From NCBI GenBank assembly GCA_029850585.1, contig JARCRQ010000072.1, positions 1-64,000 of the forward strand: 64,000 nt of DNA. Reading direction: 5' to 3'. Source of the stretch: Sideroxydans sp. (GTDB lineage Bacteria > Pseudomonadota > Gammaproteobacteria > Burkholderiales > Gallionellaceae). Below are positions 28,309-35,115 of the stretch, in pieces (position 1 is the first letter of the stretch; each line of letters begins with the position of its first letter). The notes below the pieces were generated by a model. It was not told the origin of the DNA. It saw only the letters and a program-made list of their open reading frames with translations, and made no database searches. The translations under genes were made by a program, and so were the position numbers.

Positions 28309-29019
28309 TTATTCCAGTCTTCCAATCGACACCATTCCACCATACATATCTGACACACCGCGCAAGCCTACGCCATGTGCACTGAAGCCTAAAGACTCCT
28401 CATAAGCTGCATAGTTGAGACGATCATGGTGGTGGCCGTGAAAAGCGAACTTAACCCTCATGCTCTGTGCCAACACATCGATCCCTTTAAACCCGTTGGG
28501 ATGACAGGATGGAGCCTCGTGCGTCACTAAAATATCTGCTTGCTGTCCGAACAACCGCATCCAGTCATCCCAGAAAATAGTGCTTTTGTGCAAGAGTGCA
28601 TCGCCCACCAAAGGTGGTGCCATGCCCTGACCTACATCCATCGTTTTTTGGATATAAGTTTTGTAATCCGGGTACAACGGTTCGATTTCGGCACTTGCCT
28701 GTGGATACCAGATTGATTCCCTAAAAATCCCACCCAATCCGGCCACGCGCAACCCATCAATTTCGACAACACGGCCATGCAGATTCTTGTCCGCTAAGGC
28801 AGATTCAAAAAGGTTGTCATAATCGGTTTTACTGTCTGTGTCGTGGTTGCCATGAATGAAATAGACTTCAGTCAGCCTCATCACCTCCACGAACTCTTGT
28901 TCAAGTGGATGTTGCGCTTGCAGATCCCCCAAGAAAATAATGGCAGCAGGCTGTTCTGCCTGTACCATCGGCAATACGTGACTAAAGTCGCTGTGAACAT
29001 CTCCAAACATGAGGATCAT
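28309..29019 (-). CDS. metallophosphoesterase 1
   Basis: MFGDVHSDF, FLGDLQAQ, IHGNHDTD, VTHEAPSC, FHGHHHDRL. Confidence 0.88.
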   Translation of the reverse strand: MILMFGDVHSDFSHVLPMVQAEQPAAIIFLGDLQAQHPLEQEFVEVMRLTEVYFIHGNHDTDSKTDYDNLFESALADKNLHGRVVEIDGLRVAGLGGIFRESIWYPQASAEIEPLYPDYKTYIQKTMDVGQGMAPPLVGDALLHKSTIFWDDWMRLFGQQADILVTHEAPSCHPNGFKGIDVLAQSMRVKFAFHGHHHDRLNYAAYEESLGFSAHGVGLRGVSDMYGGMVSIGRLE

Positions 29020-29059
29020 CGGACAGACTCAGACTCATGAGTAAGGTGTAGTGATGGAT

Positions 29060-29809
29060 TCATATTTCCACCACCAACTTTGGATTGAACTCGAAGTTTT
29101 CCGAACCGCGATAAGTGACATATCCACGAGGATTACAGATAACACGCGTGCCGTTGGCCACGTAATCCAGATTGTCGTGCGTGTGTCCGTGTATCCACAT
29201 GCTCATCTTGCCAAACAGGTGATCCAAGTTGGATGCGAAGCAAGCCGAGAGCGCACTATCTTTAAACCGTTCAACGACAGAAAGTGCTGACGGCAAGTGA
29301 TGCGTCACCACAACAGTCTTGCCATCGAATGGCGTGTCGAGTTTTTCAGTCAGCCATGCCAATGACTGCTCGTGCAACTGTGTGGAAAGTAGTGGTGTGA
29401 AGAGCATGATCCCTTCGTGAATCAGACGAAAATCATTCAGGCAATTCTGCCCGTCCATCATGACCTCATTTTTCTTGTGCTCGCCGAACAGCAAAAAGTC
29501 TGTCCATAGCGTGCTTCCCAAAAATCGCACGCCATTGATCACAACTTCATCGTCATCGAGTAGATGCACTTTGCACTGCTCGGCAGCAAGCCGCATCAAT
29601 ACTAGCGTGTCTTCACGCTGAGCACCGTAGAACTCATGGTTGCCAGGAACATAGATGATTTCCTTGTCGGGAAACTTTTCTCGCGCCCATATGATGCCGT
29701 TGGATTTCTTGCCGATGTCGCCAGCCAGCACAACCACATCCGCATCGGTTACAAATGGTTCAAACGTCGAGAACTCAAGGTGTATGTCACTCAGTATGTA
29801 CAGTTTCAT
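29060..29809 (-). CDS. metallophosphoesterase 2
   Basis: ILSDIHLEF, LAGDIGKK, VPGNHEFYG, VTHHLPS, IHGHTHDNL. Confidence 0.92.
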   Translation of the reverse strand: MKLYILSDIHLEFSTFEPFVTDADVVVLAGDIGKKSNGIIWAREKFPDKEIIYVPGNHEFYGAQREDTLVLMRLAAEQCKVHLLDDDEVVINGVRFLGSTLWTDFLLFGEHKKNEVMMDGQNCLNDFRLIHEGIMLFTPLLSTQLHEQSLAWLTEKLDTPFDGKTVVVTHHLPSALSVVERFKDSALSACFASNLDHLFGKMSMWIHGHTHDNLDYVANGTRVICNPRGYVTYRGSENFEFNPKLVVEI

Positions 29810-30477
29810 AGGTTCAATTTCAGAACGTCGCTCGGCACATTCCGTGCTCCTAGACGCTCCTCATCTGCAATAGCGCGCTGAATATCCTCAACGGTGTAGG
29901 TCGTTTCAAGATGTGGTGCCGCAGACTGTTCGTTGTGGTTTTGATTGGTCAATTTGTGCTGATTCAGAAACTCACCGAAGACCAAAGCCACTGCCTCTGA
30001 AAAGGCTTCATCGCCTTTCAGAATAAACAGGTTGTCCGGTGGATTTTCAGTATCGTCCCAAAAAAGCTGCGCCTGGTCATCCAAAGCGATCCAAGGCTCA
30101 CCAGCCAATCCGTTTCCCTCAAGATAGGCCAGCACCTCGGACAACCTTGATCCCACCCCACCAAACTTATCGCAAAGCGGGGTATGTCCGATCACACGGT
30201 CGGCAAGCGTAGCGGGCAAAAACTGCAAGAGTTTCTCGGGACGGAAATGCTCACGCCATGTCGATGAAATCACGATCCGCACATTCGGAAACGGCTCAAG
30301 AGCGGCGGCCAGCCGATCAGCATGCTCAAACATATCCTTACCCTTGACCAGCTTACCGTCGCGCGTCAGGAAGCGGGCCTCATGCGCTTTGAGGTAACGC
30401 CGCGCGGCTGGTGGGCAACGTTTCACGGTGACATTTTCGTGGTGTAGCACGCCATCGAAATCTAGAAAGAGAATCAT
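29806..30477 (-). CDS. HAD phosphatase-like protein 1 (resembles HAD domains of RNA-repair proteins)
   Basis: MILFLDFDGVLHHENV (DxD motif), VRIVISSTWREHF, WIALDDQAQLF. Confidence 0.8.
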   Translation of the reverse strand: MILFLDFDGVLHHENVTVKRCPPAARRYLKAHEARFLTRDGKLVKGKDMFEHADRLAAALEPFPNVRIVISSTWREHFRPEKLLQFLPATLADRVIGHTPLCDKFGGVGSRLSEVLAYLEGNGLAGEPWIALDDQAQLFWDDTENPPDNLFILKGDEAFSEAVALVFGEFLNQHKLTNQNHNEQSAAPHLETTYTVEDIQRAIADEERLGARNVPSDVLKLNL

Positions 30478-32870: not shown

Positions 32871-33514
32871 AGTAACCCTCTAAATTTATCTACAATCTCA
32901 ACTTCTAAGACAGGTCGCATTCCCCACATATCTACCCCGATGTTCAGCATCGGTGGCAAACCTGCGTATGTATTGGTGAGCCATTTGGAATGGACATGAC
33001 CGTGTAGCAGGAGTTTTTCAGCTCTTCGTGCTGGACGATGTTCCAAGTAGCGCAGCTCATAATCCGGTAAACCATCAGTATTTCGTGGTGCGTAGGGAAA
33101 GTGCGAGAGTTGTACTGTTCCGATTTCCGGCAGGACAATCTCATGGTGCAAATGAATTGCACTAAACCCGGCTTGCAAAGCAAGGGCGCGCGCGTCTTCC
33201 ATGAGGCGCACATCGCCACTAATCAGCCCCTTAAAAAACGGATCATGGTTTCCTGAAATGAGGATTTTTTCACCATTCAAAAATGGTAAGACATCACACA
33301 TTTGCTCAAACATGTAGCAAAAGTCCCCTAGGCAATACACCACGTCGCCCTCGGCAACACTAGCGTTCCACTGATTAACCAGGTAATCATCCATCTTGTC
33401 GATGGATGAGAATCGAGTGCCATGAGCATCACGACGCATCTCATCTTCATACTTGAGTATGTTGGCGTGACCGAAGTGCTGATCGGCAGTAAAAAAGTGG
33501 TTGTGGTGCATCAT
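32867..33514 (-). CDS. metallophosphoesterase 3
   Basis: [43 protein letters not shown]. Confidence 0.9.
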
Positions 33515-33611
33515 CTCTCTTTCGGTAATTCGTAAAGTTCTAGCTCAGGTGGTTCCTTGTGTGTTTCGGATTTTGAGAACGGTCGATAATCTGCGCGACT
33601 ACTATGTGCTA

Positions 33612-34997
33612 CTAGAAACCCATACGACGTTGACCTTCAACTTTGGGGATGATTAGTTTGGCGAACTTGTCGCCCGCATCGATCGCTTTGGAGAATGCCT
33701 CTCTGACCAAGCGAGTGGTTTTTCTAAGGTCCAAGTCCTTCCGATGCGCCAAGGATTCGCTGGCATCCCTATCCAGTTCAATGTCTCGTTTCGTGTCCAA
33801 GCGCAACTTTGCTGCCTCACCTTGAATGATGCGTAATCGTTGCTCTGGCTCAGGCCGTGGCACATCGAAAACCTCAAGCCGAGACAATAAAGACGTGGGT
33901 ACGCCTTCCAAGCTGTTAGCAGTTAGCACGAAAATCACGCGGCTTGCGTCAAAACGCATCTCTAGGAACTCATCTTTAAAGTCTTTAGCTGTATCGGGCT
34001 CAAACAAATCCAAGAGAACCGGCAGCACTGGGTAACGCCCATCAACGATCTTGTCTATCTCATCAATGACCACGACGGGTGCTGCCGACGCACCTTTGGC
34101 AAGCACAGAAACTAACGATCCTGGCCGCGCACCAGTCCAGCTTGTATGCGAACCCGTCAATTGGAATCCGCCCTGGGCACCACCAGCACTGATCTTTTCC
34201 ATAGAAACACCTAGAGCCTTCCCTAGCTGAGTAGCCAAATGGGTCTTGCCGATGCCGGGATCACCTAATAGCAGGATGGGGGTGATGTGGAAGTTCTCTG
34301 CCTTCATAGCACTGGCAAGCACCAAATCCATTTGCAACCGACTAATCGGATCAATCAGATTCTCAAAATTGCTCTTGGCAGCCTCCAGCTTCTGCCACGC
34401 TTTCTTGGCATCAGGTATGGAGCGATACCCATCATTGAGTTTTGCATTCTCAAGGAGCACATCACCGCCGATTCTGATTTCAGCTTTAACTTCCGACATA
34501 AGATTCAGAGCCTTCGCGACATCTCCCTGTTTGAAAACTTGAATGCTGGAGCGCGGCCTAGCCTTTTTCTTCGAGACTGGCTTTGCAAGTTCAAACGCTT
34601 TTTGCCATTGGACATGGAAGTATTTGGCTAGTCCTGATATTCGGTCGTTGGATAAGTGTTCAGTTTTTACATTGAAACCCTTATGCCAAAGCGCAGCGTC
34701 TTGTTGCAAAAAAGATTTACTACAGTTGCATAGGCACGACAGCATTTGTTTGGCTGAGTCCCAGCGGGGATCGGTCAAGTACTCGAGCATGTCTTCGAAG
34801 CTGACATTCTTCTGGTTGTACGAAAGATGTAAAGCGACCGCCACAAACATATCCTTGGATAGCTCAAATGTGACACTGTCCATGCCCCTCTTTGATTTAT
34901 TGAGCAGCTGCGTTGCCAGTGCAGATGCATCTGCTAGGTCGTGGTTGGTGCCGATACGAATACTGGCGAGATTTTTGGGTAACTGATTGATGCTCAT
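33612..34997 (-). CDS. AAA+ ATPase
   Basis: LLLGDPGIGKTHLATQLGKALG, VVVIDEIDKIVDG, FVLTANSLEGVPTSLLSRLEVFDV. Confidence 0.88.
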   Translation of the reverse strand: MSINQLPKNLASIRIGTNHDLADASALATQLLNKSKRGMDSVTFELSKDMFVAVALHLSYNQKNVSFEDMLEYLTDPRWDSAKQMLSCLCNCSKSFLQQDAALWHKGFNVKTEHLSNDRISGLAKYFHVQWQKAFELAKPVSKKKARPRSSIQVFKQGDVAKALNLMSEVKAEIRIGGDVLLENAKLNDGYRSIPDAKKAWQKLEAAKSNFENLIDPISRLQMDLVLASAMKAENFHITPILLLGDPGIGKTHLATQLGKALGVSMEKISAGGAQGGFQLTGSHTSWTGARPGSLVSVLAKGASAAPVVVIDEIDKIVDGRYPVLPVLLDLFEPDTAKDFKDEFLEMRFDASRVIFVLTANSLEGVPTSLLSRLEVFDVPRPEPEQRLRIIQGEAAKLRLDTKRDIELDRDASESLAHRKDLDLRKTTRLVREAFSKAIDAGDKFAKLIIPKVEGQRRMGF

Positions 34998-35115
34998 TTT
35001 TCCTCCTGACATGTCCTCTATGCAATCAACATTAAATTAGATATATATTTAATTAGTCCGACTTATATAGACATATTTTTATTTTAACTATGTTTATAAA
35101 TAGTTAAATACAGAA

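Follow-up and report, generated by a model that had tools for sequence, protein, structure and literature searches.

A Sideroxydans island operon joining a Lon-like AAA+ ATPase with a coupling-protein-like domain to phosphoesterases and exonucleases

The described systems closest to the operon analysed here are VirD4/TraG coupling proteins, Lon proteases, the predicted RNA-repair sets of jumbo phages, the fertility-inhibition factors PifC and Osa, and mycobacteriophage Gp48. The operon lies on the minus strand at 28309-35012 of a 64,000-nucleotide stretch of Sideroxydans sp. (GCA_029850585.1, contig JARCRQ010000072.1, positions 1 to 64,000; hereafter the window), and encodes an AAA+ ATPase followed by metallophosphoesterases (MPEs), DEDDh exonucleases and HAD phosphatases. 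In coupling proteins, the all-alpha domain recognises the cognate relaxosome, as stated in a passage of PMC7434980 that cites Whitaker 2015. The N-terminal helical domain of the operon's ATPase is homologous to this domain, whereas its motor is of the Lon type rather than a coupling-protein nucleotide-binding domain, and a transmembrane segment is not evident by eye. With Lon the ATPase shares the AAA+ core and the helical bundle preceding it; unlike Lon, it has no protease domain, ends after the AAA module and begins with a different N-terminus.

The jumbo-phage sets, which comprise SAK-HAD and calcineurin-like phosphatases, use the same HAD family and the same phosphoesterase superfamily, but the operon carries no RNA ligase or kinase, contains multiple paralogues and is tied to an AAA+ protein and mobilisation genes. 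PifC and Osa (PMC5696584) would be comparable in one reading, where the AAA+ protein targets the interface between coupling protein and relaxosome; they are unrelated proteins, whereas the operon combines a borrowed coupling-protein domain with a battery of hydrolases, and inhibition is here hypothetical. Gp48 (PMC12287305), likened by description rather than by sequence, is likewise a metallophosphoesterase of phage type and serves in counter-defence, but it acts alone and damages host DNA. Our literature search found no described system that matches; the subscription literature, including the main RNA-repair review, lay mostly outside its scope, so parts of the enzyme set may have been noticed earlier. 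In composition and domain architecture, the operon belongs to no known family.

The AAA+ ATPase and its proposed action

Two regions of the ATPase, which is the first gene of the operon, define its architecture:

34728-34979, minus strand: residues 12-95, homologue of the all-alpha domain of VirD4/TraG coupling proteins (NCBIfam, tblastn, alignment, fold model)
33819-34283, minus strand: residues 244-398, Lon-like AAA+ module with Walker A GDPGIGKT and Walker B VVVIDEID (Pfam, NCBIfam, fold)

The best sequence and predicted-fold matches of the core are Lon AAA+ domains (mean predicted local distance difference test, pLDDT, 82.6), and the protein stops where the protease domain of Lon would start. 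The C-terminal Ser-Lys protease domain of Lon was not found in the protein, which scores 114 bits with the NCBIfam lon model against a cut-off of 608. Sequence and fold model together mark the protein as an unfoldase core of the Lon type that lacks the protease domain.

The N-terminal ~130 residues are helical, and in the model the helical domain extends to residue ~143. In NCBIfam, the model for the coupling protein TraG hits residues 15-76 (E 8e-4), and a profile of the N-terminal domain finds the TraG proteins of two other loci (L051 and L052; E 1e-12), whose identity is backed by Pfam (T4SS-DNA_transf, E 1e-120). The alignment falls on TraG 246-325, a stretch that separates the nucleotide-binding domain into two halves and is the place of the all-alpha domain, and it is precisely this region that is skipped by the similarity between TraG and the coupling protein Cag5. 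When the 134-aa (amino acid) N-terminus was compared with 72,556 plasmids by tblastn, three AAA genes of the family were among the matches listed and all other informatively annotated ones among them were coupling proteins (best E 7e-8), a few of the listed matches being unannotated and 256 further records lying beyond them. The coupling-protein nucleotide-binding domain itself (T4SS-DNA_transf) gave no match in the AAA+ protein. These comparisons show the N-terminus to be homologous to the all-alpha domain of coupling proteins, and the all-alpha-like domain is present throughout a sub-clade of AAA proteins formed by the window, L032-L034, L041, L042, L080-L082 and L154.

Within this sub-clade, the main AAA protein of L042 carries the all-alpha-like domain twice, and a CbxX/CfqX-type AAA+ protein with the same domain, a separate fusion, adjoins the main cluster there (L042:5534-6925). 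An IS3-family element interrupts the AAA gene of two Polaromonas plasmids (L033:6710-9637, L032:14274-17349).

We tentatively read the operon as a mobile-element conflict module that uses the borrowed domain to engage the complexes of conjugative transfer, a real possibility that falls short of probable. The AAA+ protein would form a hexameric ring and work as an unfoldase, with a Lon-type motor and no protease. Its all-alpha-like domain would dock it on a relaxosome or on the relaxase-bound transfer strand, and the motor would pull the docked complex apart, stripping proteins from it. The co-expressed phosphoesterases, HAD phosphatases and DEDDh exonucleases would then act on the nucleic-acid ends so exposed, trimming, de-phosphorylating or destroying them; alternatively, the hydrolases may clear nucleotide signals raised by an attack. 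In this way the element could protect or establish its own transferred DNA, or stop a rival element. A bolder version, which we consider doubtful, would make the operon a new class of machinery, in which a protease-less Lon-type unfoldase, a relaxosome-recognition domain and a swappable hydrolase set capture the relaxase-DNA complex, unfold or extract the relaxase, and process the ends so as to finish the element's own transfer or abort that of a rival.

The original prediction, which was made from the letters of the window, did not include the Lon-like AAA+ protein without protease, the coupling-protein-like N-terminus, the adjacency to relaxases or the tRNA-Val island. Because of the coupling-protein-like domain, the relaxase neighbours and the place of the operon as island cargo, the likely theatre shifts away from phage infection and towards conjugation and conflicts of mobile elements. 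If this is true, the operon is an undescribed conflict or transfer module in which a protein-unfolding motor has acquired a coupling-protein domain; mobilisable elements would then be seen to act on relaxosomes from the cytoplasm, and plasmid-plasmid competition or post-transfer relaxase removal would become open to testing.

Operon layout, enzyme families and RNA repair

The genes of the operon are given here in the direction of transcription, together with a doubtful open reading frame (ORF) between the first two exonuclease (EXO) genes:

33612-35012, minus strand: AAA+ ATPase, 466 aa, gene 1 (ORF, Pfam, NCBIfam, fold model)
32867-33514, minus strand: metallophosphoesterase A (MPE-A), 215 aa (Pfam; phrog_547, 2e-40; structure 1xm7, 5e-7)
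32358-32870, minus strand: DEDDh exonuclease 1 (EXO1), Rv2179c-like, 170 aa (Pfam, PHROGs, structure match)
32170-32361, minus strand: 63-aa ORF, doubtful gene (ORF call)
31658-32170, minus strand: DEDDh exonuclease 2 (EXO2), Rv2179c-like, 170 aa (Pfam, PHROGs, structure match)
31396-31656, minus strand: 86-aa protein beginning MTVAELIARLSELDPSMRVVVNGYE, with relatives in L042 and L214 (weak phrog_7217)
30899-31402, minus strand: DEDDh exonuclease 3 (EXO3), Rv2179c-like, 167 aa (Pfam, PHROGs, structures; RNase AS model below cut-off)
30474-30902, minus strand: HAD phosphatase 1 (HAD1), HAD_SAK_2, 142 aa (Pfam E 1.2e-20)
29806-30477, minus strand: HAD phosphatase 2 (HAD2), HAD_SAK_2, 223 aa (Pfam E 1.5e-23)
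29060-29809, minus strand: metallophosphoesterase B (MPE-B), 249 aa (Pfam; phrog_1649; fold model pLDDT 96.9)
28309-29019, minus strand: metallophosphoesterase C (MPE-C), 236 aa, last gene (Pfam; phrog_1649, weak)

The original prediction had described ten or more packed minus-strand genes. After the ORF positions were rechecked, the reading frames and their junctions stood as claimed, with ATGA, TAATG or short overlaps at 32867/32870, 32358/32361, 32170, 30899/30902, 30474/30477 and 29806/29809; ten genes are credible, and the 63-aa ORF is doubtful, a counterpart to it not being found in the cluster of the congener G021 (L042). Scans for promoters and terminators gave a signal no higher than in shuffled sequence.

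All three exonucleases match the Rv2179c-like Pfam family, EXO3 above the curated cut-off and EXO1 and EXO2 below it, and the profile of the family matches solved Rv2179c structures (4oke, E 1.4e-11). Their DEDDh residues are kept, with DTE, D97 and HHALxDA invariant. Both HAD proteins score above the curated cut-off of HAD_SAK_2 (PF18143) and keep the DxD and DD motifs. In Pfam, two of the three MPEs match Metallophos and the third weakly Metallophos_2, and the metal-binding motifs are present by inspection. The MPEs fall into different groups, with MPE-A matching phrog_547, MPE-B matching phrog_1649 strongly (6e-49) and MPE-C the latter weakly. Thus three Rv2179c-like paralogues, three MPEs of different subfamilies and two HADs resembling those of RNA-repair proteins, all previously proposed, were recovered with their catalytic motifs.

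Since the nonsynonymous divergence (dN) is far below the synonymous divergence (dS) for every operon gene with measurable dS, in comparisons with relatives in G021, G001 and G037, the operon genes are, as judged from these alignments, intact and under purifying selection. Against G037, for instance, dN/dS pairs are 0.16/1.08 for EXO3 and 0.14/0.69 for HAD1, while dS is saturated for several gene pairs with G021. Decay of the genes is ruled out by these values, yet in G284 a truncated HAD is all that stands beside the AAA gene.

The enzyme families would also fit a counter-defence kit for RNA repair, a possible though somewhat doubtful explanation of the operon. Here the enzymes would heal and trim RNA, mainly tRNA, that has been cut by host or phage-triggered nucleases: the MPEs and HADs would remove terminal phosphates, the DEDDh enzymes would trim 3' ends, the AAA+ protein would remove bound proteins or toxins, and a host enzyme would ligate. 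The HAD_SAK_2 and Rv2179c-like assignments fit this role, phage relatives exist for every enzyme of the operon, and in jumbo phages standalone SAK-HADs, along with calcineurin-like phosphatases, are predicted to heal RNA ends (PMC7824862). However, neither an RNA ligase nor RtcB was found among the operon proteins or the subset of island ORFs scanned, the operon has no kinase, the phage relatives are mostly solitary and do not form a repair cassette, the family names are themselves predictions, and the coupling-protein-like domain is left unexplained. DNA ends, nucleotides or proteins are equally possible targets of the three phosphoesterase subfamilies. The repair or degradation of RNA put forward in the original prediction is in this way matched by the enzyme families and the neighbouring conflict genes, but not by a ligase or kinase, whose absence from the operon it had itself pointed out. 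Even under RNA repair, a recurrent mobile enzyme set merits biochemical study.

Recurrence and relaxase neighbourhood

We surveyed 399 genomes of the window's order for four families, namely the long AAA+ protein, the exonuclease, the HAD and MPE-B. Loci with at least two of these families within 6 kb were observed 18 times, compared with 0.4 expected by random placement, which produced a maximum of 4 in 2000 runs. The 18 loci span about ten families, and as some of the genomes are related they do not represent 18 independent events. An enzyme of the set accompanies 9 of 11 long-AAA loci, usually just downstream, as opposed to 1 of 58 control loci with other AAA genes, nearly all of them the short relatives that were the main yield of a second genome-wide AAA scan. 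A chance pile-up, which the original prediction had named among the outcomes that would undo it, is ruled out by these counts.

In the congener G021 (L042) the cluster is almost complete, with protein identities of 47-78%, and is joined by the McrBC-like pair and the 422-aa protein described below and an extra dual-specificity phosphatase (DSP). Elsewhere the clusters are partial and the AAA gene almost always comes first: AAA-EXO in G204, AAA-EXO-HAD in G241, AAA-EXO-HAD-DSP-MPE-B-DSP in G279, AAA-MPE-B-EXO-HAD-MPE-A-HAD-HAD in G127, AAA-MPE-B-HAD-MPE-C-DSP in G317, and AAA-HAD-exoribonuclease-MPE on a Rhodoferax plasmid. A further recurrent component, marked by a KEKFGxLRFY motif and in some cases fused to the HAD, occurs at L084:10534-11238, L085:11064-12068 and L087:4999-5463, and its L087 member has no Pfam match.

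MPE-B relatives are found in 124 plasmid records, and AAA and MPE genes are repeatedly neighbours on alpha- and betaproteobacterial plasmids (Microvirga, Sphaerotilus, Rhizobium, Bosea), also with other AAA types. The Rhizobium and Bosea pairs were rejected as members of the family, their AAA similarity being generic, and were counted as convergent pairings. On the Rhizobium leguminosarum plasmid pRlBT01c (L368), AAA and MPE genes overlapping by 4 bp lie near an oligonucleotide cyclase of a cyclic oligonucleotide-based antiphage signalling system (CBASS). Some phage contigs place a HAD near MPE-A, and L248 holds an AAA-MPE pair; descent of the set from a single phage cassette was rejected, as the viral exonuclease and MPE-B relatives are mostly solitary.

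At L032, L033, L034/L039 and L154, a relaxase gene is followed after 0.4-1.3 kb by an AAA gene of the sub-clade; at L213, L214 and L216, an enzyme cluster comes about 0.5 kb after one. This gives seven places in which an AAA gene or an enzyme cluster directly follows a relaxase. The weakest of these relaxase assignments is that of L214 (Pfam Relaxase 0.0013, plus TraI-type helicase domains). Relaxases of these types were found at none of 57 short-AAA loci and at one of 25 exonuclease-only loci.

This neighbourhood could also reflect a shared cargo slot, where AAA genes and phage-type hydrolase genes gather separately in one insertion niche behind relaxases and integrases without a joint mechanism. 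Such an origin, which we consider unlikely, would suit the presence of both AAA-only and enzyme-only loci behind relaxases, the varying number and order of the enzymes, and the fact that most exonuclease loci (24 of 37) and MPE-B loci (92 of 102) hold no other tested family. It would not account for the enzymes at most long-AAA loci, for the stop/start codon overlaps throughout the operon, or for AAA-MPE pairing repeated with unrelated AAA types, once with overlapping genes; moreover, several clusters have no relaxase within 10 kb.

Several observations weigh against a conflict module that acts on transfer complexes. Enzyme clusters without the AAA gene (L213, L214, L216, L220) and AAA genes without the enzymes (L032, L033, L036, L041, L083, L154) both occur, and for this reason joint action of the two is unproven. 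The all-alpha-like domain is absent from the distant AAA proteins of L083-L085, L087, L089 and L090, and of these L084, L085, L087, L089 and L090 bear enzymes. No relaxase or type IV secretion system was seen among the island ORFs scanned in the window. The nearest fold of the MPE-B model is PptH, a phosphopantetheinyl hydrolase whose substrate is a protein-linked phosphodiester, which is only a hint at activity. Finally, genes adjacent to relaxases normally lie in the lagging region (PMC11541004), so their position gives no reason to expect that they are expressed early in the recipient, as anti-defence genes are, and we dropped the reading of the cluster as leading-region anti-defence genes.

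Host island and flanking genes

The operon resides in a complete 40.6-kb integrative island at tRNA-Val (window 5182-45850), whose limits follow from a 45-bp stretch of the tRNA gene that is repeated at the far end:

5182-5226, no strand: left attachment repeat, 45 bp, 1 mismatch to 45806-45850 (repeat search)
26887-27174, minus strand: HU-family protein flanking the cluster, likewise at L214, L216 and L041 (ORF scan)
35180-36448, plus strand: 422-aa protein, divergent from the AAA gene (ORF; genus survey)
44649-45776, plus strand: tyrosine integrase of the host island (ORF scan)
45806-45850, no strand: right attachment repeat, within tRNA-Val (repeat search)
45806-45882, minus strand: tRNA-Val(gac), the integration site (tRNA call)

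The cargo of the island includes a type III restriction system, HerA-SIR2, a DrmD-like helicase, a WYL regulator, HU, McrB/McrC-like genes and a UmuC-like polymerase. With such neighbours (type III restriction-modification, HerA-SIR2, the DrmD-like helicase and McrBC), and with one AAA-MPE pair adjoining a CBASS cyclase, the operon might instead serve the island as an anti-phage defence, its AAA+ protein sensing infection or activating hydrolases that degrade nucleic acid or nucleotides as effectors. We regard this as quite improbable. PADLOC 2.0.0 matched no defence system in agreement with the earlier statement that none of this composition was recognised, and returned only generic or weak hits (a partial PDC-S10 for MPE-B, TRIP13 at 3.8e-7 for the AAA+ protein and a CRISPR-associated DEDDh at 5e-4); the all-alpha-like domain points to relaxosomes, and several of the loci belong to plasmids or mobilisation regions, not to defence islands.

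The 422-aa protein has no Pfam or NCBIfam match. Among 61 genomes of the genus only 3 encode it, each time adjoining and divergent from the AAA gene, and it is possibly a regulator, with a helix-turn-helix-like C-terminus by eye. Upstream of the cluster, the McrB/McrC-like pair (window 36418-39197) has no McrC Pfam match and is kept in G021.

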